From IMG/VR virus record IMGVR_UViG_3300036985_004801, positions 1 to 54,321 of that record: 54,321 nucleotides of DNA. One strand, 5' to 3'. The notes under the pieces were generated by a model. That model saw only the letters and a program-made list of their open reading frames with translations. It was not told the origin of the DNA and did not search any database. This document shows, piece by piece, positions 39,239-50,850 of the stretch; the first letter of the stretch is position 1, and each line of letters opens with the position of its first letter. Source of the stretch: a virus. Both the position numbers and the translations under genes were made by a program.

Positions 39239-42200
39239 ATGGCAAAGCAAAGAAGAGGAGCAGGCAATCAAGATGTTAAAACAACAGGTACTTTTGATAA
39301 AAGTCTTGTTACAGATACTAGTGATTTTCATTTACCAGAAAATTCATGGACCTATGCTAGGAATGCTATTAATAACACACGTAAGGGAGATATTGGTAAG
39401 TTAAGTACTGAACCTGCAAATGACTTTTGTACTTATGCACCGTATACAATTATTGGTGCTATACATATAGAAGAAGACAGATGGTTGATGTTCTCAACAA
39501 ACAATACTGATTCAGAAATTGGTATCTTTAAAGAAGGTACTTGTAATTATACTACATTAGTCAATGATAAATGTTTAAAGTTTAGTACTGATTTTTTAAT
39601 TAAAGGAATTATAAGACCAACTTATAATTGTTCTTTTAATGCTTATTGGGATGATGGAAAAAATGTATCAAGAGTATTAGATATTTCTGATGTACCATGG
39701 AAACAAATTTGTGTAACAACTGATGGATGTACTGTATGTACTGATACAACAGATCTTGATTGTGATAAACTTAGATTAGAATCTTTTATACAGACACCTT
39801 GTATTAAAATTGTTAAAGGTAAAGGAGTTGCAAGTATAGCAAATGGTACATACCAAGTACAAATAGCATATCTTGATAATCAACAAAGAGTTACAGATTA
39901 TTTTATTCCATCTAATCCTTTGTCTTTATTTGATCATACAAATATTAATAGTTCAATTGATATTTATATTTCTAATTTAGATACTAATTTTACTGATTAT
40001 AGTTTAGTTTTAATATATGTTGTAAATGAAAATACTGTTGCTAGACAAATGGGAATCTATAGTACTAGACAAAATGTTGTTACAATAGATTATATTGATC
40101 TTACTCTTCCTGTTGTTCCTTTATCCTTAATGCCGATAATAACACCAGTTCCAGATAAATCTGAAGCTATATATAATGTTGGTAGTTATGCTCTAAGAGT
40201 TGGACCAACAACAAAATTTGATTTTAATTATCAACCCTTGGCTAATCAAATAGAAACTTTTTGGCAATGTGTTGAATATAAAAATGAGTACTATAAAAAT
40301 GGTGGTACTAATATAGGATACATGCGTGATGAAGTATATCCTTTCTTTATAAGATGGGTATATAATACAGGTGATAAATCAAGTAGTTATCATATTCCAG
40401 GTAAAGCTGCAACTGACTTTTATCTTACAGATGATACTGGAGCAAATGCTGGTCTAATTGCTGAAGATGCAATATGTCCTGCTACAATAAATGATATTGA
40501 AAGTCCTGATTATATACCAAAAGTTTTTGAAGTATATAATACAGCTACATTAACTACTACTCCTAATACAATATTGCCAGATGGAGGATTATTAGTAGCA
40601 GAAGGTAAAATGGGATACTGGGAATCAGTTGAACTATATGATGATAACAATCCAATTGTTTGGAATTCAAATATAGCTGGACATCCTGAATGGAATCTGT
40701 GTGGTAAACCTATTAGACATCATAAATTTCCTGAAAATGTAATTATTTCAGGTGGATCTTCAAATACTATTACTAATCATTATAAAGATGGTGGTGATAA
40801 AATTAGAATCATGGCAGTACGTTTTGATAATGTACAACCACCAGTTGACAACAGTGGTGCTTTAATCTCTAACATTGTTGGTTATGAAATTCTAAGAGGT
40901 AACAGGACTGGAGCAAAAACTGTTTTATATAAAGGAATAATAAATAATATGTTTTCATATACAGCACCTGCTATTATAACTAATAGAACTGCATTGTATG
41001 CTAACTATCCTTTTAATGATCTAAGGCCTGATCCTTTTATTTCATCAAATCCTACACCAACTAGTTTTGAACCAGGTTCAGGAGGTTTAATTAACTATAC
41101 TCCAAATGCTGCTTATAGTAGAAAACATTTTACTTTTCATTCTCCTGATACAATGTTTGCTACACCATTTTTAGTAGATGATGAAGTAAAAATTTATGGT
41201 GCAGCATGGGGAGATAGTCAAGGTAATTATTTAGAACCTGATCATCATCCAAGACATAAGTTTATAACAGATTTATCATTTTTAGCAGGAATTATTGCAG
41301 GTATTGGTTATGCTATTTCTCAACAGTTAGGTACAAGAGATATTAAATATTCGGGGTATCAAATTGATAGTGATCCAATATTTGCAGGAGCTTCTAATTC
41401 TGCAGGAAATGTGATTCCAGCAACAACTGTATTAACTGCTGCACAAGCAGCTGCAATTAATACAGTTGGTTTACAAGGATTTGTTGATGGTTTTTCTGGA
41501 CAAAATGTAGGGGTTGCTTCAACAACTTCTGTAACACAATTGGCTCTTAGAACTGCAAGTCAAGTAGCTGCTAGTGTTCCTTCATCAGGAATAACTTCAG
41601 GTACTGTTGAAATTACTTATAAAGATCAAGATTCTAATCCTGGACCGATTAAAGTAATAATGCTTGCTTTAGGTAATCCTATATTTGTAAGTCAAATGTC
41701 TGAAGGAGCTGCTACTACAATGAAATTAATTTTATCATTGGGATCATGGCAACAATTTGCTGTACAATATCAAGCATTATGTAAATATGAAAACTTTGCT
41801 GCACCTTATGCTCATAATAGAAGAAGACGAGTTAATGATGCTAGATATTTAAAACAAGGTATTCAAGATTATCAATCTAATTATGTTATTAATCATAAGC
41901 TTAGAAATGATACAGCAATGTTTGATACTACAGTAGATATAGATGATATTACAGGAACAATTGCTGATGTATCAAGGCCGCAATTAATATCAACTCTTTC
42001 AGAAGATAATAAGTTTAATACATATTCAAGAAGAGCATCTTCTCATTATGTAGCTTTAAAAACTAGATTAAGAAATCAATATGGACAGTTGCAATCTGTA
42101 AGACAATTATTAGCATCTTCTTGTATAACTCCTATAGCATTAACTAATTCAGGTGTAATATTTGGAGGAGATATTTATATTGGTAAATATTCAGAAAAAA

Positions 42201-44152
42201 ATACATTATATTATTTTCAACAATGGTTAGATGGTGAACTTGATGGAGCTATATTTAATTACAACAAGTATAAGATGTTTGAAAATACTGCTTTTTGGAT
42301 GGACACTGATCCATTTGATTTAATGGAGTTTGTAAATAGTTTTCCAAGTGCAATTAGTAGTGCTCTTACAGGAGGTTCATTATCTTCGGTTATGGCATCA
42401 TTTGTTACTCCTTCTGATAAACATTGTTTTGATAGATTAGGTATTGCATCTAATGGAATATTCTTGTTAAAGAAAGCATACATGTATTTATTTAATTCTG
42501 GTGTTAGAGATTTCTTTGTAGAGTCAGAATTTAATGTAGATATGAGAGATTGGCAAGATATTGAATCTCAAAAACATTATCCAGTTCTTTCTAATTTAAG
42601 AACAATGTTTGGAATGAAATTGATAAGAGCTGATAACTATTATAAAATAGATAGAAGTTTATCTTGGTCATTCATGGCAAGTCAAAAAATACCTTGGGGT
42701 ATTATGCAAGATAGAGATTATAACCCTTTATTGTCTGAAAGTTGTTATACTAAATTTCCAAGAAGGTTACTTTATTCATTACCACAAAATGCAGCACAAC
42801 AAGATGTATCTTTATTAAAACAAGATAACTGGAGAATATTTTTACCAAATAATTATGCTGATTATGAAAGTAATGTAACAGCAATTAAGTCTATTGATAG
42901 AACTGCAGCATTGATTCTTTTTGAAAATCAAGCTCCTGGATTATTACCTGGGGTTGATGAATTAAAAACACAATCTGGTACAGCAGTAACAATTGGAGAT
43001 GGTAATTTGTTTGCAAGAAAATTACAACAACTTTCAAACTCAGAAACTTCTTATGAATTTGCATCTTGTCAAAGTAGATTGTCTGTATTAAATACTCCGG
43101 CTGGTGTATTCTGGATGAACTTAAATCAAGGTAAAATATTTAGTTATTCTGGTGGATTAAAAGAGATATCTTTAAAAGGAAATAAGTTTTGGTTAAATAC
43201 ATATTTACCATATAAATTACTTGAGGACTTTCCTACATTCTCTGTTACAGATAATCCTGTATCTGGAATAGGATGTCAAACAATTTATGATAATGAATAT
43301 AGTTTAATCTATTTCTGTAAGAAAGATTACAAATTAAAGAAAGACCTACCAGTTACTGTTGAGTATGTGGGTGGTTCTAAGTTTTTAATTAATGATGTTT
43401 TTATAGCAAATGCAGGAGATCCTTTATACTTTGATGATTGTTCATGGACATTAAGCTATGATCCTAAAATTCAAGAATTTGTATCATTTCATGATTGGCA
43501 TCCAGATTTATCTTTAGGTGCTAAGAATACCTTTTTAACAACTAAGGGTAATGGTATATGGAAACATAATAATATTTGTAGTTTATATTGTAACTACTAT
43601 GGTAAAGACTATCCATTTGAAGTAGAGTTTCAATTAGATAATAAGTTTGCTGTAGCTACAATGAGAAATGTAGAGTTCTATATTGAAAGTTATATATATG
43701 ATTCTAAAAATTGTTATGATAGATTTCATGTATTAGATCATGGATTTAATGAAGCTGTAGTACATAATTCAGAACAAGTATCTGGTTTGTTAAAGTTAGC
43801 AATTACTCCTAAGAATGATATACCATTACTATTAAGTTATCCTAAAGTTCAATTAGATCACATAGATATTATCTTCTCTAAAGAAGAACAACAATATAGA
43901 TTTAATCAATTCTGGGATATAACAAATGATAGAGGTGAATACAGTAATGCTGAAGAACTTATTTGGAATACAGAAGATAATGGTTATATTCGTAATCTGA
44001 ATCCAGTAAATTTAAACTATAACAAGCAAGAATTTCAAAGGAAAAAATTCAGACACTTTAATAATAGAGTAATTTTAAAAAGAACAGATAACAATAATGT
44101 TGAGATACTTGTAAGTTTAGCAGTAAGTAATCAACAATTATCTCACAGATAA
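39239..44152 (+). CDS. Giant tail stabilisation/muzzle-type protein (1637 aa)
   Basis: The largest gene of the window. The N-terminus has FHLPENSWTYARNAINNTRK, which is typical of crAss-like stabilisation proteins (P22 gp10-like tail needle/stabiliser families). The body is made of repeated beta-rich segments with aromatic residues (GIIRPTYNCSFNAYWDDGKN), consistent with a large beta-propeller-type assembly, and ends in helices. It would build the tail hub/muzzle at the distal end of the short tail and secure the DNA. It starts 2 bp after the connector gene. Confidence 0.78.
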   Translation: MAKQRRGAGNQDVKTTGTFDKSLVTDTSDFHLPENSWTYARNAINNTRKGDIGKLSTEPANDFCTYAPYTIIGAIHIEEDRWLMFSTNNTDSEIGIFKEGTCNYTTLVNDKCLKFSTDFLIKGIIRPTYNCSFNAYWDDGKNVSRVLDISDVPWKQICVTTDGCTVCTDTTDLDCDKLRLESFIQTPCIKIVKGKGVASIANGTYQVQIAYLDNQQRVTDYFIPSNPLSLFDHTNINSSIDIYISNLDTNFTDYSLVLIYVVNENTVARQMGIYSTRQNVVTIDYIDLTLPVVPLSLMPIITPVPDKSEAIYNVGSYALRVGPTTKFDFNYQPLANQIETFWQCVEYKNEYYKNGGTNIGYMRDEVYPFFIRWVYNTGDKSSSYHIPGKAATDFYLTDDTGANAGLIAEDAICPATINDIESPDYIPKVFEVYNTATLTTTPNTILPDGGLLVAEGKMGYWESVELYDDNNPIVWNSNIAGHPEWNLCGKPIRHHKFPENVIISGGSSNTITNHYKDGGDKIRIMAVRFDNVQPPVDNSGALISNIVGYEILRGNRTGAKTVLYKGIINNMFSYTAPAIITNRTALYANYPFNDLRPDPFISSNPTPTSFEPGSGGLINYTPNAAYSRKHFTFHSPDTMFATPFLVDDEVKIYGAAWGDSQGNYLEPDHHPRHKFITDLSFLAGIIAGIGYAISQQLGTRDIKYSGYQIDSDPIFAGASNSAGNVIPATTVLTAAQAAAINTVGLQGFVDGFSGQNVGVASTTSVTQLALRTASQVAASVPSSGITSGTVEITYKDQDSNPGPIKVIMLALGNPIFVSQMSEGAATTMKLILSLGSWQQFAVQYQALCKYENFAAPYAHNRRRRVNDARYLKQGIQDYQSNYVINHKLRNDTAMFDTTVDIDDITGTIADVSRPQLISTLSEDNKFNTYSRRASSHYVALKTRLRNQYGQLQSVRQLLASSCITPIALTNSGVIFGGDIYIGKYSEKNTLYYFQQWLDGELDGAIFNYNKYKMFENTAFWMDTDPFDLMEFVNSFPSAISSALTGGSLSSVMASFVTPSDKHCFDRLGIASNGIFLLKKAYMYLFNSGVRDFFVESEFNVDMRDWQDIESQKHYPVLSNLRTMFGMKLIRADNYYKIDRSLSWSFMASQKIPWGIMQDRDYNPLLSESCYTKFPRRLLYSLPQNAAQQDVSLLKQDNWRIFLPNNYADYESNVTAIKSIDRTAALILFENQAPGLLPGVDELKTQSGTAVTIGDGNLFARKLQQLSNSETSYEFASCQSRLSVLNTPAGVFWMNLNQGKIFSYSGGLKEISLKGNKFWLNTYLPYKLLEDFPTFSVTDNPVSGIGCQTIYDNEYSLIYFCKKDYKLKKDLPVTVEYVGGSKFLINDVFIANAGDPLYFDDCSWTLSYDPKIQEFVSFHDWHPDLSLGAKNTFLTTKGNGIWKHNNICSLYCNYYGKDYPFEVEFQLDNKFAVATMRNVEFYIESYIYDSKNCYDRFHVLDHGFNEAVVHNSEQVSGLLKLAITPKNDIPLLLSYPKVQLDHIDIIFSKEEQQYRFNQFWDITNDRGEYSNAEELIWNTEDNGYIRNLNPVNLNYNKQEFQRKKFRHFNNRVILKRTDNNNVEILVSLAVSNQQLSHR

Positions 44153-44199: not shown

Positions 44200-47100
44200 A
44201 TGAAAAGGCAATTAGCAAAAAAAATTGATAAATTTAAATTGGGAGGAACACCTAATTTGAATACTGTGTATATCAATAATTTGACAAAGATGCTCAACAA
44301 TACTGTAGGAAATAATCAATTATCCCAAGCTGAATATGGCATGGATATGCAATTTGGTGATCCTACTAAACCAAAAAAACCACAGACTGCTAAACCTGTA
44401 CAACCATATTACACATCTGATCGTAAAGATTATGATTATCATGTGCAGGCGAAACTTGATAGTTTCGCTTTATATAATTACACCAAGTTACAAAGAGAAC
44501 TTGAAAAAGGTACAGACCGTAATTCAAGAATGAGTCAATATTTGGGTAGTCCAGTATATACAGAAGAGGGTGTAAAAGGGCAAAAAATCTTAAAAAAAGA
44601 AGCGGCTAAAATTTTAAAAGAACACCCTAATATAAAAAGTGGGACTTATAAAGAACCTAAAAGTTATAAAAGTTATTCAGGTAGTTGGGATGTCCATCAC
44701 CCTAAAATTAAGCCTCAAGGAACGTGGTCAGGTCATGCATTAAATGATGATTATTCTAATGCAAAACCAGTACAAGAAGTTATTTTTAGAGCAAATAATA
44801 ATACTATAAAGAAGACATTAACACCTATACCTACAAAAGTAAAATATGCTAATAAGAAAAAGACAATAACAAATGTTAATGCAGTACCAGAAGATAAAGT
44901 AATACCTCAAGATGAGATTACACCTCTTGATCCTATGTCTTTTCCACAAGTTGCAAGACCTGAGCAACAAATTATTCCAGCTCCACCATATGTAAAACCT
45001 GTTCATTATGCTGGCCCAAGATATGGTACATTAGCTGGGGATGAGAATCTTAATTTACCTGAAGGATATACTCAAGAACAAAGAGAAGCAGCTAGAAGAA
45101 AGTTTGCTGCTGATGAGTTTACAAGAAAAACTTTAGAGTACCAACAACAACAAAGAGGTACTCAACCTGTTGTTCAAACACGTAAAGAAGGAGGAGAACC
45201 ATTTAGTTTGAATACCAAGTATATTAATAATTTAACAAATATTCTTAATAATGTGGCAGGAAATAATCAATTATCTCAAGCTGCATACGGTATGAACATG
45301 CAACCTGGTGGTCCTGATAAACCTGTAAAACCAAATAATATAACAACACAAGATACTGATATTTCCTTAGAAGATTATTTAAAACTATATGAAAATTCTT
45401 TAGCTTTAGAAAAAGGTATTACAAGTATGCCTAATTATAAATTACAAGGGTCAAGTAATAATGTAGATGATTATTTAAAACAATTAGCACAAGCAAGAGA
45501 ATATTGGGCTGATTCTCCAAAAGAATTAGAACAATTACAAAGTCAATTAAAATCTAATTTATTAAATAAAACTGATCAGCAACGTAAATATGCAGAACTA
45601 TCTGTAGCAAGAAAAATAGAAACAAATAATATTAATGATTATCATACAGTTGTATCACCAAATAGTTTTTATCAAAGAGATCTATCAAATGGTTTTGTAA
45701 ATAAAAATTTTCCACCTGCATATTATGATTCTAGAGTAAAACCTTCTTCAAGAAATAATTATAGTTATCAATCTTCTGATGAAAATGATAATTTTTTTGA
45801 TAACATTGAAGTATATAAATATGATCCAGTTGAAGTTAAAAAACAAGCCTTATTAAAATATGCTGATTCTGAAGAAGCTTTTCAAAATATTTTAAATAAC
45901 TCTACAGGAAATGATATAGCTCCATTAAAACGTATACCATATGCACAATCTGTGCAACCCAAACAAGAAATAATACCTGCTAAACCATATGTAAAACCTG
46001 TTCATTATAGAAATTGGAATCCTAGGTTTTATGAAAATGAAAATATGGAAATGCCAGAAGGATATACTCAACAAGATGTTGAAAAAGAAATAAGAAGAAG
46101 GCAATCAGCAGAATATGATAAAAGAGCATTAGAGTATCAAGAACAAGAAAAAGCTAAAATTACTAAAAGATTAAAACCAGCAGTTCTTACTGAAAATTTT
46201 AAAGAAGGAGGAGAACCAGATAAAACACTGCCTGATGAGGAATGGTATAAAAAGTATCAACAACAAAAAGCTAAATATGAAAGTGATAAAGCTAAGGGTA
46301 TAATATCTAGTACTGGTTATCAAGATGAAGTAACTGTTACACCTGCTAATAATAATAGACAAAAAGGAATACAAGTTACTCCTGAACAATATAAGGAATT
46401 AGAAAGAAAAAGTAAGGGGGAAAAGTGGGCAAAACAATTTGGTGAACAGTATAGTACATATGAATCTCAACCATGGAATCATACACCACAAAGTGCAGGT
46501 TCTGCTGATTGGTTCTGGACTTTACCTTTTGCTGCTCCAGCTGCAATAGAAGCTGCAGGTGCTATAGGAGCAATGTCACTTCCGTTTATGTCTACTATAC
46601 CAGGTGCTACTGTAGGTAATGCAGCAATGGCCGCAGGTATGGCTAATAGTTTTTATAAAGCTCCTCAAAATGTTAAAGATTGGTATGATGTATCACAAGG
46701 TACCAAAGATTGGAAAGAAGCAGCAGCAGGAACTGGAGAAATTGCTTTAGGTTTAATAGGATCAAAAGCAGGATTTAAGTCAGTTGCAGATGATGTTGCA
46801 CAAGGTGCTAAAACTGTTAGTAAAAGTGTTGGTAATACATATGATAATATTGCTGAAGGTGATAATTTTTTAAATTATGCATGGCAAAGTCCAGCAGCAA
46901 AAATTGATAGATTAGCTGGTGAACTTGATAAAATGCCAATGTCACAAAATATATTTGATAAAATTAAAAATAATACAAATATTTCATCTGAAGATAAACT
47001 TTTTATAAAAGATTATGAAATTGGTAGTGGACCATATACAGGTAGAGGGGTGTCTAATCCTGAAAGAAGAGCAAAACTTAATGAAATTTTAAAAAAAGCT

Positions 47101-47643
47101 AATATATCACTTGATGAACCAGCAGTAATTTCAAGAAGAATTGATTCAGCAAATAGTGATATATTTCATTTAGAAAATGGAGTATATAAACCAAATAGAA
47201 TTACTTCTTGGTCTGGAGGAAGAGATCATCTTGGAAATATAAAATATGATGGAGGTGTAGATAGAATGGTTGTAAAATTACCAAAAGGAGAACATAATAT
47301 TTTAAAAAATCCTTATATTCCACTTACAGAAGAGGAAGTAGCTGCATATGAACAACTACAAAGAGATGCAGGTAAGAGTTTTGATCCACGACTTCTTGGT
47401 GATAGATCCGGAGAAAGAGAATTATTATTAGGAGAAAATGCTCAATTTAAAAAGATGGGTAAAGTAAAAAATTTATTTGGAGGTCATGATTTTATTATGA
47501 AACCTAAATGGCATTTACAACCAGCAACTATTGAAGGAGGATTTAAAAATGGTGGTGATGTTGAATCATGGGAAGATGATCTTGATAATGAACAAATAAA
47601 AGCTTATAGAAAAGCTGGGTATATTGTTAAAGTTATTAAATGA
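44200..47643 (+). CDS. Large virion protein with tandem duplication and candidate ADP-ribosyltransferase domain (1147 aa)
   Basis: The start is ATG 44200 (MKRQLAKKID); a TTG at 44185 is the only longer option. Residues 15-673 hold two ~1-kb duplicated segments with conserved edges. Residues 770-830 are hydrophobic/Ala-rich (FAAPAAIEAAGAIGAMSLPF). From about residue 925 an ART-like domain appears: PYTGRGVSNPERRAKLNEIL, R979/R980 in VISRRID, STS-like TSWS (1002-1005), and E1072-R-E1074 in GERELLLG. The C-terminal tag GGDVESWEDDLDNEQIKAYR recurs in related form in the next protein. It is probably an injected cargo protein. Confidence 0.6.
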   Translation: MKRQLAKKIDKFKLGGTPNLNTVYINNLTKMLNNTVGNNQLSQAEYGMDMQFGDPTKPKKPQTAKPVQPYYTSDRKDYDYHVQAKLDSFALYNYTKLQRELEKGTDRNSRMSQYLGSPVYTEEGVKGQKILKKEAAKILKEHPNIKSGTYKEPKSYKSYSGSWDVHHPKIKPQGTWSGHALNDDYSNAKPVQEVIFRANNNTIKKTLTPIPTKVKYANKKKTITNVNAVPEDKVIPQDEITPLDPMSFPQVARPEQQIIPAPPYVKPVHYAGPRYGTLAGDENLNLPEGYTQEQREAARRKFAADEFTRKTLEYQQQQRGTQPVVQTRKEGGEPFSLNTKYINNLTNILNNVAGNNQLSQAAYGMNMQPGGPDKPVKPNNITTQDTDISLEDYLKLYENSLALEKGITSMPNYKLQGSSNNVDDYLKQLAQAREYWADSPKELEQLQSQLKSNLLNKTDQQRKYAELSVARKIETNNINDYHTVVSPNSFYQRDLSNGFVNKNFPPAYYDSRVKPSSRNNYSYQSSDENDNFFDNIEVYKYDPVEVKKQALLKYADSEEAFQNILNNSTGNDIAPLKRIPYAQSVQPKQEIIPAKPYVKPVHYRNWNPRFYENENMEMPEGYTQQDVEKEIRRRQSAEYDKRALEYQEQEKAKITKRLKPAVLTENFKEGGEPDKTLPDEEWYKKYQQQKAKYESDKAKGIISSTGYQDEVTVTPANNNRQKGIQVTPEQYKELERKSKGEKWAKQFGEQYSTYESQPWNHTPQSAGSADWFWTLPFAAPAAIEAAGAIGAMSLPFMSTIPGATVGNAAMAAGMANSFYKAPQNVKDWYDVSQGTKDWKEAAAGTGEIALGLIGSKAGFKSVADDVAQGAKTVSKSVGNTYDNIAEGDNFLNYAWQSPAAKIDRLAGELDKMPMSQNIFDKIKNNTNISSEDKLFIKDYEIGSGPYTGRGVSNPERRAKLNEILKKANISLDEPAVISRRIDSANSDIFHLENGVYKPNRITSWSGGRDHLGNIKYDGGVDRMVVKLPKGEHNILKNPYIPLTEEEVAAYEQLQRDAGKSFDPRLLGDRSGERELLLGENAQFKKMGKVKNLFGGHDFIMKPKWHLQPATIEGGFKNGGDVESWEDDLDNEQIKAYRKAGYIVKVIK
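44242..46219 (+). repeat. Tandem ~1-kb duplication within one gene
   Basis: Unit 1 (44242-45189) and unit 2 (45190-46219) begin with a similar sequence (YINNLT..LNN..GNNQLSQA.YGM) and end with a similar sequence (IIPA.PYVKPVHY ... PEGYTQ). The middles are unrelated. Each unit is preceded or followed by a K.GG.P motif. The pattern suggests an ancestral duplication with one exchangeable internal part. Confidence 0.7.
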
Positions 47644-47661: not shown

Positions 47662-50600
47662 ATGAAAAAGAGAGTAAGAATATATAAGGCTGGTGGCCAA
47701 ACAAATGAAATAGAAAACAATATGGGAAATCCAGAACAACAAATGCCTCAAGGTAATCCTGAAGCAATGCAGCAACAAATGCAACAAGGTCAACCTCAAC
47801 AAGGTGGTCAAGATCAACAGATGCAACAAATTATGCAGTTTGTTCAACAGATGCTACAACAAGGAGCACAACCTGCTGATATTGCTGCACAATTACTTGA
47901 AAGGCAAGTACCGCCTGAAGCTATTATGCAAATATTTGTTCAAATGGGTATGCAAGAAGCTGAAGCACAACAAACTATTCAAGCTGCTATGCAAAATGGT
48001 CAACCCCAACAACAACAAGGACAGGGTGAAGAACAAATGGAAGGACAAGCTTCTAATCCTCAAGAGGAACAACAAGAACAACAAGGACCTCCTCCTACTC
48101 AACCTGGTGCTCAAATGTCTTATGGCGGTGGATTACAAAGAAGACAACCTCTTTTTGCTGAAGGTGGAAATGTAGATCAAGATGAACTTGATACTGTTGT
48201 TAAAGATGTAGAAGCTTGGATGTCAAGTGATGTTGATACAGATACCATAATTCAACGTATTACCCAACAAGCACAAGATGGAGATATAAGTCCAGAAGTT
48301 GCAAAAATGATTTTAGATAAATTAAGTGAACAAAAACAAGCTAGTGATCCTAGTGGTTCAGATGTAGCCATGCAATCTCAATCAAATGATCCACAAGTAT
48401 ATACTCCTGAGATGGGTGCTCCAGATCAGCAAATGGGATATAGTAAGTTTGGTGGTAATCTTAAAAAATTATTAACTAAAGCTTATGGTGGATCAGCAGC
48501 TGCTCCTGAAGAAAGATCTAAAAATTATGCTGAAGACAGAACAAATATGTTTTTAGACACTATTAAAAATAATACATATAAGTCTATATTAAATGGTTCT
48601 TTCAACAGAGATGGTTCTGTTAGTGCTGCTTATACATCTCCTACTATGTCTTATGGTGGAGGTATTCCTAAAGCCGAAGGTGGAATTAATTTAAAAGATG
48701 GTAAGGTAGTAATTGATCCTACACAATATAAAAGTGAAGCTGAATATAAAGCTGCTGCATTAGATTGGAATTATGCAAATCCTCAGAATACAGTAGGTAT
48801 GGATCTATATAAAGCTAATCCATGGAAAGCTCCTGAAGTTGAGAAAGTAGATAAGGCTACATATACTTATGATGCAGCAAGTGGATCATTTAAACCAGCT
48901 GCCGCAGCAACTACAACTACCAATACAGGTGTTGCAAGAGCTGGAGATGTATTAGGTCAAGATGCTTATGGTGCTTTTGTTACTCATACAGATGGTTCAA
49001 TGCATAGAGTACCTGGCAATACTCCTGCTCCAGGTGCTTATACTCAGCAATATGGTGGATATGGTCAAGGAAACTTTAATCCAGTAGCTTATGGTAGACC
49101 AGGAAATACTTTATTTGATAATTTATATTCTGGTGCAAATCCATTGGGTAGGTTTTTAGCTAACTCAGGAAACAGATATTCCGATCTTAATGTTATAGGT
49201 AATAATTTACCAGGTGGTATGAGTGGTGCTGAATTTTTAGGTGCTGCTGGGAAAAATGGTTTATTCCCTGGTATGGCTGGAAAAATTGGTGATCAATCAT
49301 GGAGAATAGGTGAAGGTGAAGAATTTAAAGAAGGTAGTTTCTGGAAAGGTAATAGAAGAAAAGGTACAAGATATCAAGTTGATTGGGGTAATGCTGCTGC
49401 AATGAATCCTGTAGGCAATGTGCCTGGGTATAATCCAACTGCAGCTGGTCCCGGTTATTCTGGATATAATGCTGATGCAAATGGAGATGGTATTCCTGAT
49501 CTTTTAGTAAGACCAAATGAAACTACAGCACCTGTAGCAACTACTAATCCTGTTACAGCACCTGTAGCAGAGGATGTTACTCCTTCTTCTACTGATGCAT
49601 CTGTTCCTATTGCTACACCTGATCCTAATGCAGATGTAAATACACAATCTGTCAATAGTGGAACATATCCAGAAGATGATTATAATGCATTGGCTGATGT
49701 TACTAGAGCTGAATTAGAAAATTATAATTTAGAAAGACAAAGAGCTGCTTCAGAAGGTGCTATTAATGGTTATCCTGTAAATCAACAAGGTCAAGCACCT
49801 TTATATTCTGGTGAACAACCAATGATGTCTGCAACTGAACAAGATATATATCAAGCACCTTTAGATCAAGGATTTACTCAAAATAGTAATTATGCTGTTT
49901 ATGGTAATCCAACAACTACTGGAGTACCTGCTGAATATACTCCTGAGGCAGATGCTAGTACAGAAGTGCTTATGGAAAGTGATGGTCCTACTAATTATAA
50001 AGCACCTAAAAAACCTATAGCAAAAAAGAAAACTGTTTTATCACAAACATCTGCTGTAAAACAACAAGAAGCACAAAAGGCTGCAAAAAGATTAGCATTT
50101 GAAAATTTACATAATCCAACTACTAAAAATCAAGCAAACAGGAATACTTTTAAAACAGAGGAAGAATGGAACGCTTATCAAGATGTACTAAATAAAAATT
50201 TAGCTAGACAGAATGCTTTTGGTCTTAGCCGCGCATATGGTGGTAATATAGATCCTCAAGCATTGCATAATGCTATTAATTTAATTAATCGTGCTTATGG
50301 TGGAATGATACCAAGAGCTGGTGGTGGAATTGATTTAGGTTCTATAGATACAGATGTAAATAAAATGCCAGATTATTTGCAGTTTGAAAATCTTCCTGGA
50401 AATCAACCAAGTATCGGTGAAAATACTGGTACTTTAGAAACAAGTGCTGATAAAAAATTTAAAATAGATTGGAATTCTGCAGGAGATACATATATGACTA
50501 ATGCTCCAAAGGTGACTAACTTTATGAATAAAGCAAATGCTGCTCCAGGAGTGTTAGAAAATGAGATAGGTCGTCAGTCTGCAATAAATGATACTGCTAG

Positions 50601-50850
50601 ATCTTTTGAAAGTCAATCTCAAGGTATATATGATCAACAAGGTAATTGGATACCTAATAATATTGGTAATCAAAACTTACATCAAACTAATAGTAACTTT
50701 GCTGAACAAAATCAAATTAGTAAATATGGTGGTAATGTATTTAAATATGGTGGCAAAGTTTATGAGATGGGTGGTGTAGTAGATCTTACTGATGATGAGT
50801 TAGCTGAACTAAGAGCTGCTGGAGTGAATTTAACACAAGTAAATGGATAA
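47662..50850 (+). CDS. Large Gln-rich virion protein with repeated GG motifs (1062 aa)
   Basis: Residues 25-160 are extremely Gln-rich. Between them lie a helical pair (QPADIAAQLLERQVPPEAIM, then QIFVQMGMQEAEAQQTIQA) that looks like a small helical bundle. Many YGG/KYGG/AEGG motifs follow, and the extreme end is GGVVDLTDDELAELRAAGVN, a variant of the tail of the preceding protein. DANGDGIPD at residues 605-613 resembles a calcium-binding loop. The character fits a packaged internal (cargo) protein of crAss-like phages; no enzyme is recognised. Confidence 0.6.
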   Translation: MKKRVRIYKAGGQTNEIENNMGNPEQQMPQGNPEAMQQQMQQGQPQQGGQDQQMQQIMQFVQQMLQQGAQPADIAAQLLERQVPPEAIMQIFVQMGMQEAEAQQTIQAAMQNGQPQQQQGQGEEQMEGQASNPQEEQQEQQGPPPTQPGAQMSYGGGLQRRQPLFAEGGNVDQDELDTVVKDVEAWMSSDVDTDTIIQRITQQAQDGDISPEVAKMILDKLSEQKQASDPSGSDVAMQSQSNDPQVYTPEMGAPDQQMGYSKFGGNLKKLLTKAYGGSAAAPEERSKNYAEDRTNMFLDTIKNNTYKSILNGSFNRDGSVSAAYTSPTMSYGGGIPKAEGGINLKDGKVVIDPTQYKSEAEYKAAALDWNYANPQNTVGMDLYKANPWKAPEVEKVDKATYTYDAASGSFKPAAAATTTTNTGVARAGDVLGQDAYGAFVTHTDGSMHRVPGNTPAPGAYTQQYGGYGQGNFNPVAYGRPGNTLFDNLYSGANPLGRFLANSGNRYSDLNVIGNNLPGGMSGAEFLGAAGKNGLFPGMAGKIGDQSWRIGEGEEFKEGSFWKGNRRKGTRYQVDWGNAAAMNPVGNVPGYNPTAAGPGYSGYNADANGDGIPDLLVRPNETTAPVATTNPVTAPVAEDVTPSSTDASVPIATPDPNADVNTQSVNSGTYPEDDYNALADVTRAELENYNLERQRAASEGAINGYPVNQQGQAPLYSGEQPMMSATEQDIYQAPLDQGFTQNSNYAVYGNPTTTGVPAEYTPEADASTEVLMESDGPTNYKAPKKPIAKKKTVLSQTSAVKQQEAQKAAKRLAFENLHNPTTKNQANRNTFKTEEEWNAYQDVLNKNLARQNAFGLSRAYGGNIDPQALHNAINLINRAYGGMIPRAGGGIDLGSIDTDVNKMPDYLQFENLPGNQPSIGENTGTLETSADKKFKIDWNSAGDTYMTNAPKVTNFMNKANAAPGVLENEIGRQSAINDTARSFESQSQGIYDQQGNWIPNNIGNQNLHQTNSNFAEQNQISKYGGNVFKYGGKVYEMGGVVDLTDDELAELRAAGVNLTQVNG

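Follow-up and report, generated by a model that had tools for sequence, protein, structure and literature searches.

The locus examined here raises the question of what a large protein encoded directly behind the muzzle gene of a crAss-like phage does, and whether it carries an enzyme that acts on the host. The locus lies in IMG/VR virus record IMGVR_UViG_3300036985_004801, of which positions 1 to 54,321 were analyzed as one stretch (hereafter the window), and the element in question is an open reading frame (ORF) of 1147 amino acids (aa) that runs on the plus strand, as do all window features named below, from an ATG at position 44200 to a stop at 47643. An earlier note on this DNA, made from the letters alone, had proposed that the C-terminal part of the protein is an ADP-ribosyltransferase (ART) domain of the R-S-E class on a phage virion-type protein. 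The Crassvirales rank with the most abundant of known phages, and a muzzle protein is a criterion for membership. The 1637-aa product of the gene directly upstream of the ORF (39239-44152) matches the muzzle family crAss_MUZ (PF25731, E 8e-22), which identifies the window as a 54 kb record of a crAss-like phage; the host of this phage, judged by kinship, most likely belongs to the Bacteroidota. Altogether, the reading favored here, which we regard as moderately probable, is that the 1147-aa product is cargo that the phage ejects, built from modules and probably equipped with an R-S-E ART effector. The data show where the gene lies, that it is modular and swaps modules, that its product bears a C-terminal tag, and that relatives have ART-family domains in this slot; for the window copy, we infer an ART fold and activity as well as packaging, ejection and a target. 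The evidence from context is much stronger than the evidence from the domain itself.

Relatives were found by muzzle searches of viral contigs, and the best 80 of 491 matching stretches were analyzed (loci are given by L numbers). In seven close relatives (L002-L008), the muzzles of which are 75-79% identical to that of the window, the slot behind the muzzle is empty: the muzzle gene is followed by a short gap and then by a homologue of the next window gene (47662-50850, 1062 aa). In other relatives, ORFs of 295 to 2401 aa occupy the slot, with modules swapped among them. The window ORF itself opens with two cassettes, residues 1-330 (44200-45189) and 331-669 (45190-46206), which are repeats of about 40% identity (116/292 positions identical on internal alignment) bounded at GG331 and GG670. 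Residues 383-672 (45346-46215) share 71% identity with the L064 slot gene (phmmer, 2.7e-123), with the frame intact. A hydrophobic linker, QSAGSADWFWTLP...GFKSVADDVAQGAK (46489-46854), follows, and an alignment of it (A4) with L086, L065, L115 and L117 gives 52-81% identity; in other phages, the same linker leads into different effector domains. Used as a query, the linker alignment returned only four contigs, all already known.

The linker of the window shares 70-72% identity with its counterparts in L065 and the L086 contig, and the muzzle of the window is only 44-45% identical to the muzzles of L064, L065 and the L086 contig. Modules that are 70-72% identical while the muzzles are 44-45% identical point to module exchange between distant phages. 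For the module shared with L064, the rate of nonsynonymous substitution (dN, 0.21) is as high as the low rate of synonymous substitution (dS, 0.17); the module is near-neutral or diversifying, which is the expectation for a recent exchange followed by relaxed or diversifying selection. Mild constraint is seen on the linker (dN/dS ~0.6). These comparisons indicate that the 1147-aa ORF is a rapidly reshuffled mosaic, and that effector cassettes are apparently exchanged in the slot through recombination.

The protein ends in a C-terminal tag, GGDVESWEDDLDNEQIKAYRKAGYIVKVIK (47551-47640; hidden Markov model (HMM) of the tag, 7.5e-9), with the consensus GG..ELT.EEI......GY.VE.L. This tag, which weakly resembles DUF7210, ends many proteins encoded just behind the muzzle in crAss-like phages. 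When the last 30 residues were used as a profile (E < 0.05), 83 terminal versus 22 internal copies were found across the loci, almost all of them on post-muzzle genes; in the window, only the 1147-aa protein and the 1062-aa protein (tag at about 50749-50832, tag HMM 7e-10) carry it. A regular expression for the tag found it at the end of 66 ORFs, a count that includes repeats because some loci overlap, versus 0.2 on shuffles. The tag is a candidate packaging signal. In crAss001, the gene of cargo protein C1 (gp45) likewise sits directly after the muzzle gene, and gp45 has been detected in virions, with parts of it seen in the capsid and tail (PMC10172136). Slot genes of L011 and L035 show homology to residues 353-448 of gp45 (E ~1e-11 to 1e-12), and gp45 resembles the slot proteins in its many GG-containing linkers; it differs from the window protein in that it has no described effector domain and no match to the window protein, and the crAss_CARG1 domain (PF25725) present in gp45 gave no match in the window ORF. 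The crAss001 cargo proteins were considered as bearers of the tag and ruled out, as gp45, gp46 and gp47 all lack it, which is a point against the favored reading; that the tag serves packaging, and that the window protein is packaged and ejected, are therefore put forward here as proposals.

The same data bear on whether the ORF is instead an ordinary late or accessory gene (a moron) that is not packaged and has landed between two structural genes. Such a gene could well be missing from close relatives, as this one is, and the lack of the tag in the crAss001 cargo proteins would suit it too. However, the position of the gene equals that of gp45, other genes of the slot are partly homologous to gp45, the tag is common to the neighboring gene, and the peptidoglycan-cutting domains of other slot proteins suit proteins of entry; a chance moron is accordingly quite improbable. 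The position behind the muzzle, the tag and the kinship of slot genes with gp45 suggest that the window protein is very probably virion cargo.

Slot proteins of relatives bear a range of enzymatic domains. Pfam domains in their ORFs include SLT, LysM, PG-binding, SET (four slot proteins in total), GIY-YIG, glucosaminidase, YkuD, lysozyme, amidase and M91. Two ART families are represented. The slot protein of L051 (L051:15280-20040, 1587 aa) matches PF03496 (ADPrib_exo_Tox) with 24.0 bits versus a cut-off of 23.4, and its domain aligns with the T4 Mod family in hhalign (E 1.2e-4), a score reached by 0/240 decoys. The contig of L086 (L152, minus strand, contig 3300042898_002309) encodes a 2514-aa slot protein of three cassettes, in which the first joins a linker of the window type to a different, unrecognised domain that ends in KWHLQPATIEGG, the second carries ART-PolyVal (PF18760, E 2.7e-12), and the third has a zincin-like motif, IHELTHDW. 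The end-of-effector sequence KWHLQPATIEGG also closes the candidate effector of the window (47506-47541) and, by phmmer and by a DNA pattern with two matches in L086, occurs twice in the L086 slot protein, behind other effectors. Mixing of unrelated domains of the polyvalent type is thus a property of the slot family as a whole, and the window ORF holds one recognisable candidate domain only. Beside these proteins, a weak PF03496 match was seen in the contig of L014, and ART-PolyVal was seen in ~2040-aa open frames of crAss-like contigs outside the listed slot genes (L127, L129). L117:2577-3158 and L058:15768-16460 have a common domain with YRA/YRV, W[SF]T and NE[FY]IIP, possibly another type of ART, which had no Pfam match.

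The candidate R-S-E domain of the window spans residues ~930-1102 (46987-47505). The ORF and all of the motifs named in the earlier note are present in it: PYTGRG lies at residues 945-950 (from 47032), NE lies within LNEIL, R979/R980 (47134-47139) provide the candidate catalytic Arg, TSWS at residues 1002-1005 (47203-47214) is the candidate S-T-S motif, with the T replaced by W, and the candidate catalytic E-x-E, E1072-R-E1074 (47413-47421), is followed by LLLG. The order that characterizes the superfamily, R, then S-x-[ST], then E-x-E, is present, with S-T-S reading S-W-S. The sequence of T4 Alt shows the R-S-E elements in the same succession: YVGSGY (YTGRGV in the window), the R of LYRS, then FVSTS and finally SNEMEVILP. 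A generic R-S-E pattern, drawn up once the motifs were already known, matched 0.84% of shuffles of the 1147-aa protein; in shuffled ORFs of the relatives' loci it matched about 5.7 times per 1.08 million residues. The succession R ... S-x-S ... E-x-E-hydrophobic thus exceeds chance modestly and is suggestive, and is no proof alone. Most matches of the generic regular expression lie in muzzle proteins and were put down to chance.

The domain was then compared with the ART of L051, its nearest candidate homologue, which keeps R, S and E-x-E. The full-length alignment (MAFFT) places R979/R980 on the R of VSRV, TSWS on NWSTT and E1072-R-E1074 on EQE of the L051 domain, such that R, W-S and E-x-E share columns, and a co-alignment with all three motifs beats 98.9% of shuffles (p 0.011). 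Against a profile of Mod plus L051, just 2/240 decoys scored as high as the window domain, with E-x-E in register.

Several results weigh against an ART in the window, in addition to the S-W-S reading of the S-T-S motif. The domain alone, scored against Mod, Alt and combined R-S-E profiles, is equaled by 24, 78 and 11 of 240 decoys, respectively, and its alignments to the Alt and Mod profiles are out of register. The PF03496 model gives no match to it; significant similarity to the PF03496, T4 Alt and T4 Mod profiles belongs to the L051 domain and not to the window domain. Searches of Pfam, NCBIfam, PHROG and the PDB (including a PDB profile search) returned no match to an ART, tblastn of the domain and of the full protein against phages and plasmids returned none up to E 10, and pattern scans of viral (IMG/VR) and GTDB contigs did not find the domain. 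In 89 viral contigs, mostly related, matches were limited to the tag and the end sequence, and a DNA pattern for WHLQPAT matched chiefly by chance. AlphaFold prediction of residues 871-1147 gave a predicted local distance difference test score (pLDDT) of 38 from the single sequence and of 41 from a two-sequence alignment with L051; the structure predictions are unusable because homologues are too few, and Foldseek with these low-confidence models came back empty. The comparison with PF03496 and T4 Alt that the earlier note had suggested as a check was marginal at best: PF03496 gave no match, and with T4 Alt/Mod profiles the domain ranked no better than the top 5-33% among decoys. What stands of that proposal is the order of elements, the very probable virion-cargo setting and the independent, Pfam-certified ARTs in the slot of relatives, one of them (PF03496) of R-S-E type; the ART fold of the window domain is putative.

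These results leave room for an ejected modular cargo protein with a C-terminal domain that is something other than an ART, either another small enzyme or a structural or channel part, with residues that resemble R-S-E by chance. The missing profile and fold support, the many unrelated domains of slot proteins and the S-W-S motif would all suit this alternative, but YTGRG, R, S-x-S and E-x-E-LLL are correctly ordered and spaced, the domain co-aligns with a certified ART of the same slot, and ARTs recur in that slot; we consider the alternative unlikely, although the least unlikely of those weighed here. An ART that has degenerated or lost activity, and that either serves as a binding module or drifts because selection has relaxed, is very improbable. 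The W in place of T in the S-T-S motif and the dN of 0.21 against a dS of 0.17 in the module of residues 383-672 relative to L064 are compatible with it, the latter with relaxed or diversifying selection, yet the candidate catalytic R, S and both E residues are retained, the frame is open over 1147 codons, and the linker is under some constraint. Motif order, spacing and context, taken together, make it likely that the window domain is an ART.

If the window protein is an ejected cargo protein with an ART effector, it would be expressed late and loaded into the virion through signals that perhaps include the C-terminal tag, plus other contacts. It would be partly unfolded as it leaves through the portal, the tail barrel and the muzzle, as has been proposed for crAss001 cargo (PMC10172136), and would then refold and, at an early stage of infection, mono-ADP-ribosylate a host protein in an NAD+-dependent reaction, much as T4 Alt does. 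The earlier note had named host RNA polymerase as a possible target; nothing in the analysis supports this, and it is speculation.

Injected ARTs and polyvalent proteins are already known. T4 Alt is carried in the phage head and delivered by injection (PMC9503650, PMC5512222). The likeness of the window domain to Alt and ModA/ModB is one of motif order (Y-x-G-x-G, R, S-x-S, E-x-E), with no significant sequence similarity to T4 Alt or Mod; furthermore, Alt is a myovirus protein with its own gene, whereas the window domain is a module at the end of a recombining, probable cargo protein in a podovirus-type phage. Polyvalent proteins (PMC5512222) are large and multidomain, are believed to accompany the DNA into the cell, and mix ARTs, zincins, lysozymes and other domains; that survey places Alt-type R-S-E ARTs outside genuine polyvalent proteins. 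The slot of the L086 contig contains an ART-PolyVal domain. PF03496 is present in the slot of L051, where its motifs co-align with the window domain, and the model itself does not match the window domain. The searched passages of PMC5512222 and PMC9503650 do not name crAss, and no description of ARTs, polyvalent proteins or effector slots in Crassvirales was found in a literature search that lay outside most subscription journals and preprints. There is about an even chance that many environmental crAss-like phages have an interchangeable effector slot behind the muzzle for virion-delivered R-S-E ARTs, PolyVal ARTs, zincins, SET proteins and peptidoglycan hydrolases, that these proteins are singled out for packaging by a C-terminal tag that they share, and that the window encodes a new, highly divergent R-S-E ART. 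If true, a slot of exchangeable injected enzymes would partly explain how ejected cargo prepares the host, and T4-Alt-like and polyvalent strategies would extend to podovirus-type crAss-like phages. The tag and the conserved linkers could be used as bait for further effectors, including possible anti-defence functions.

Further stretches were observed in slot proteins of relatives. The L051 slot protein has a metallopeptidase-like motif, HEAIH, close to its N-terminus. The slot proteins of L072:8026-11835 and L077:15523-19344 open with a SET-like stretch (GKGLFTTD), and that of L010:17947-18438 has a kinase-like stretch (GKGGGQGRIYKN...NNIMFD...LVDLNYVG) with no Pfam match. A crAss-like muzzle gene was also seen in L137 (WLWP01000004.1), a contig binned as part of a Pseudomonadales genome, which reflects either a host link or misbinning.
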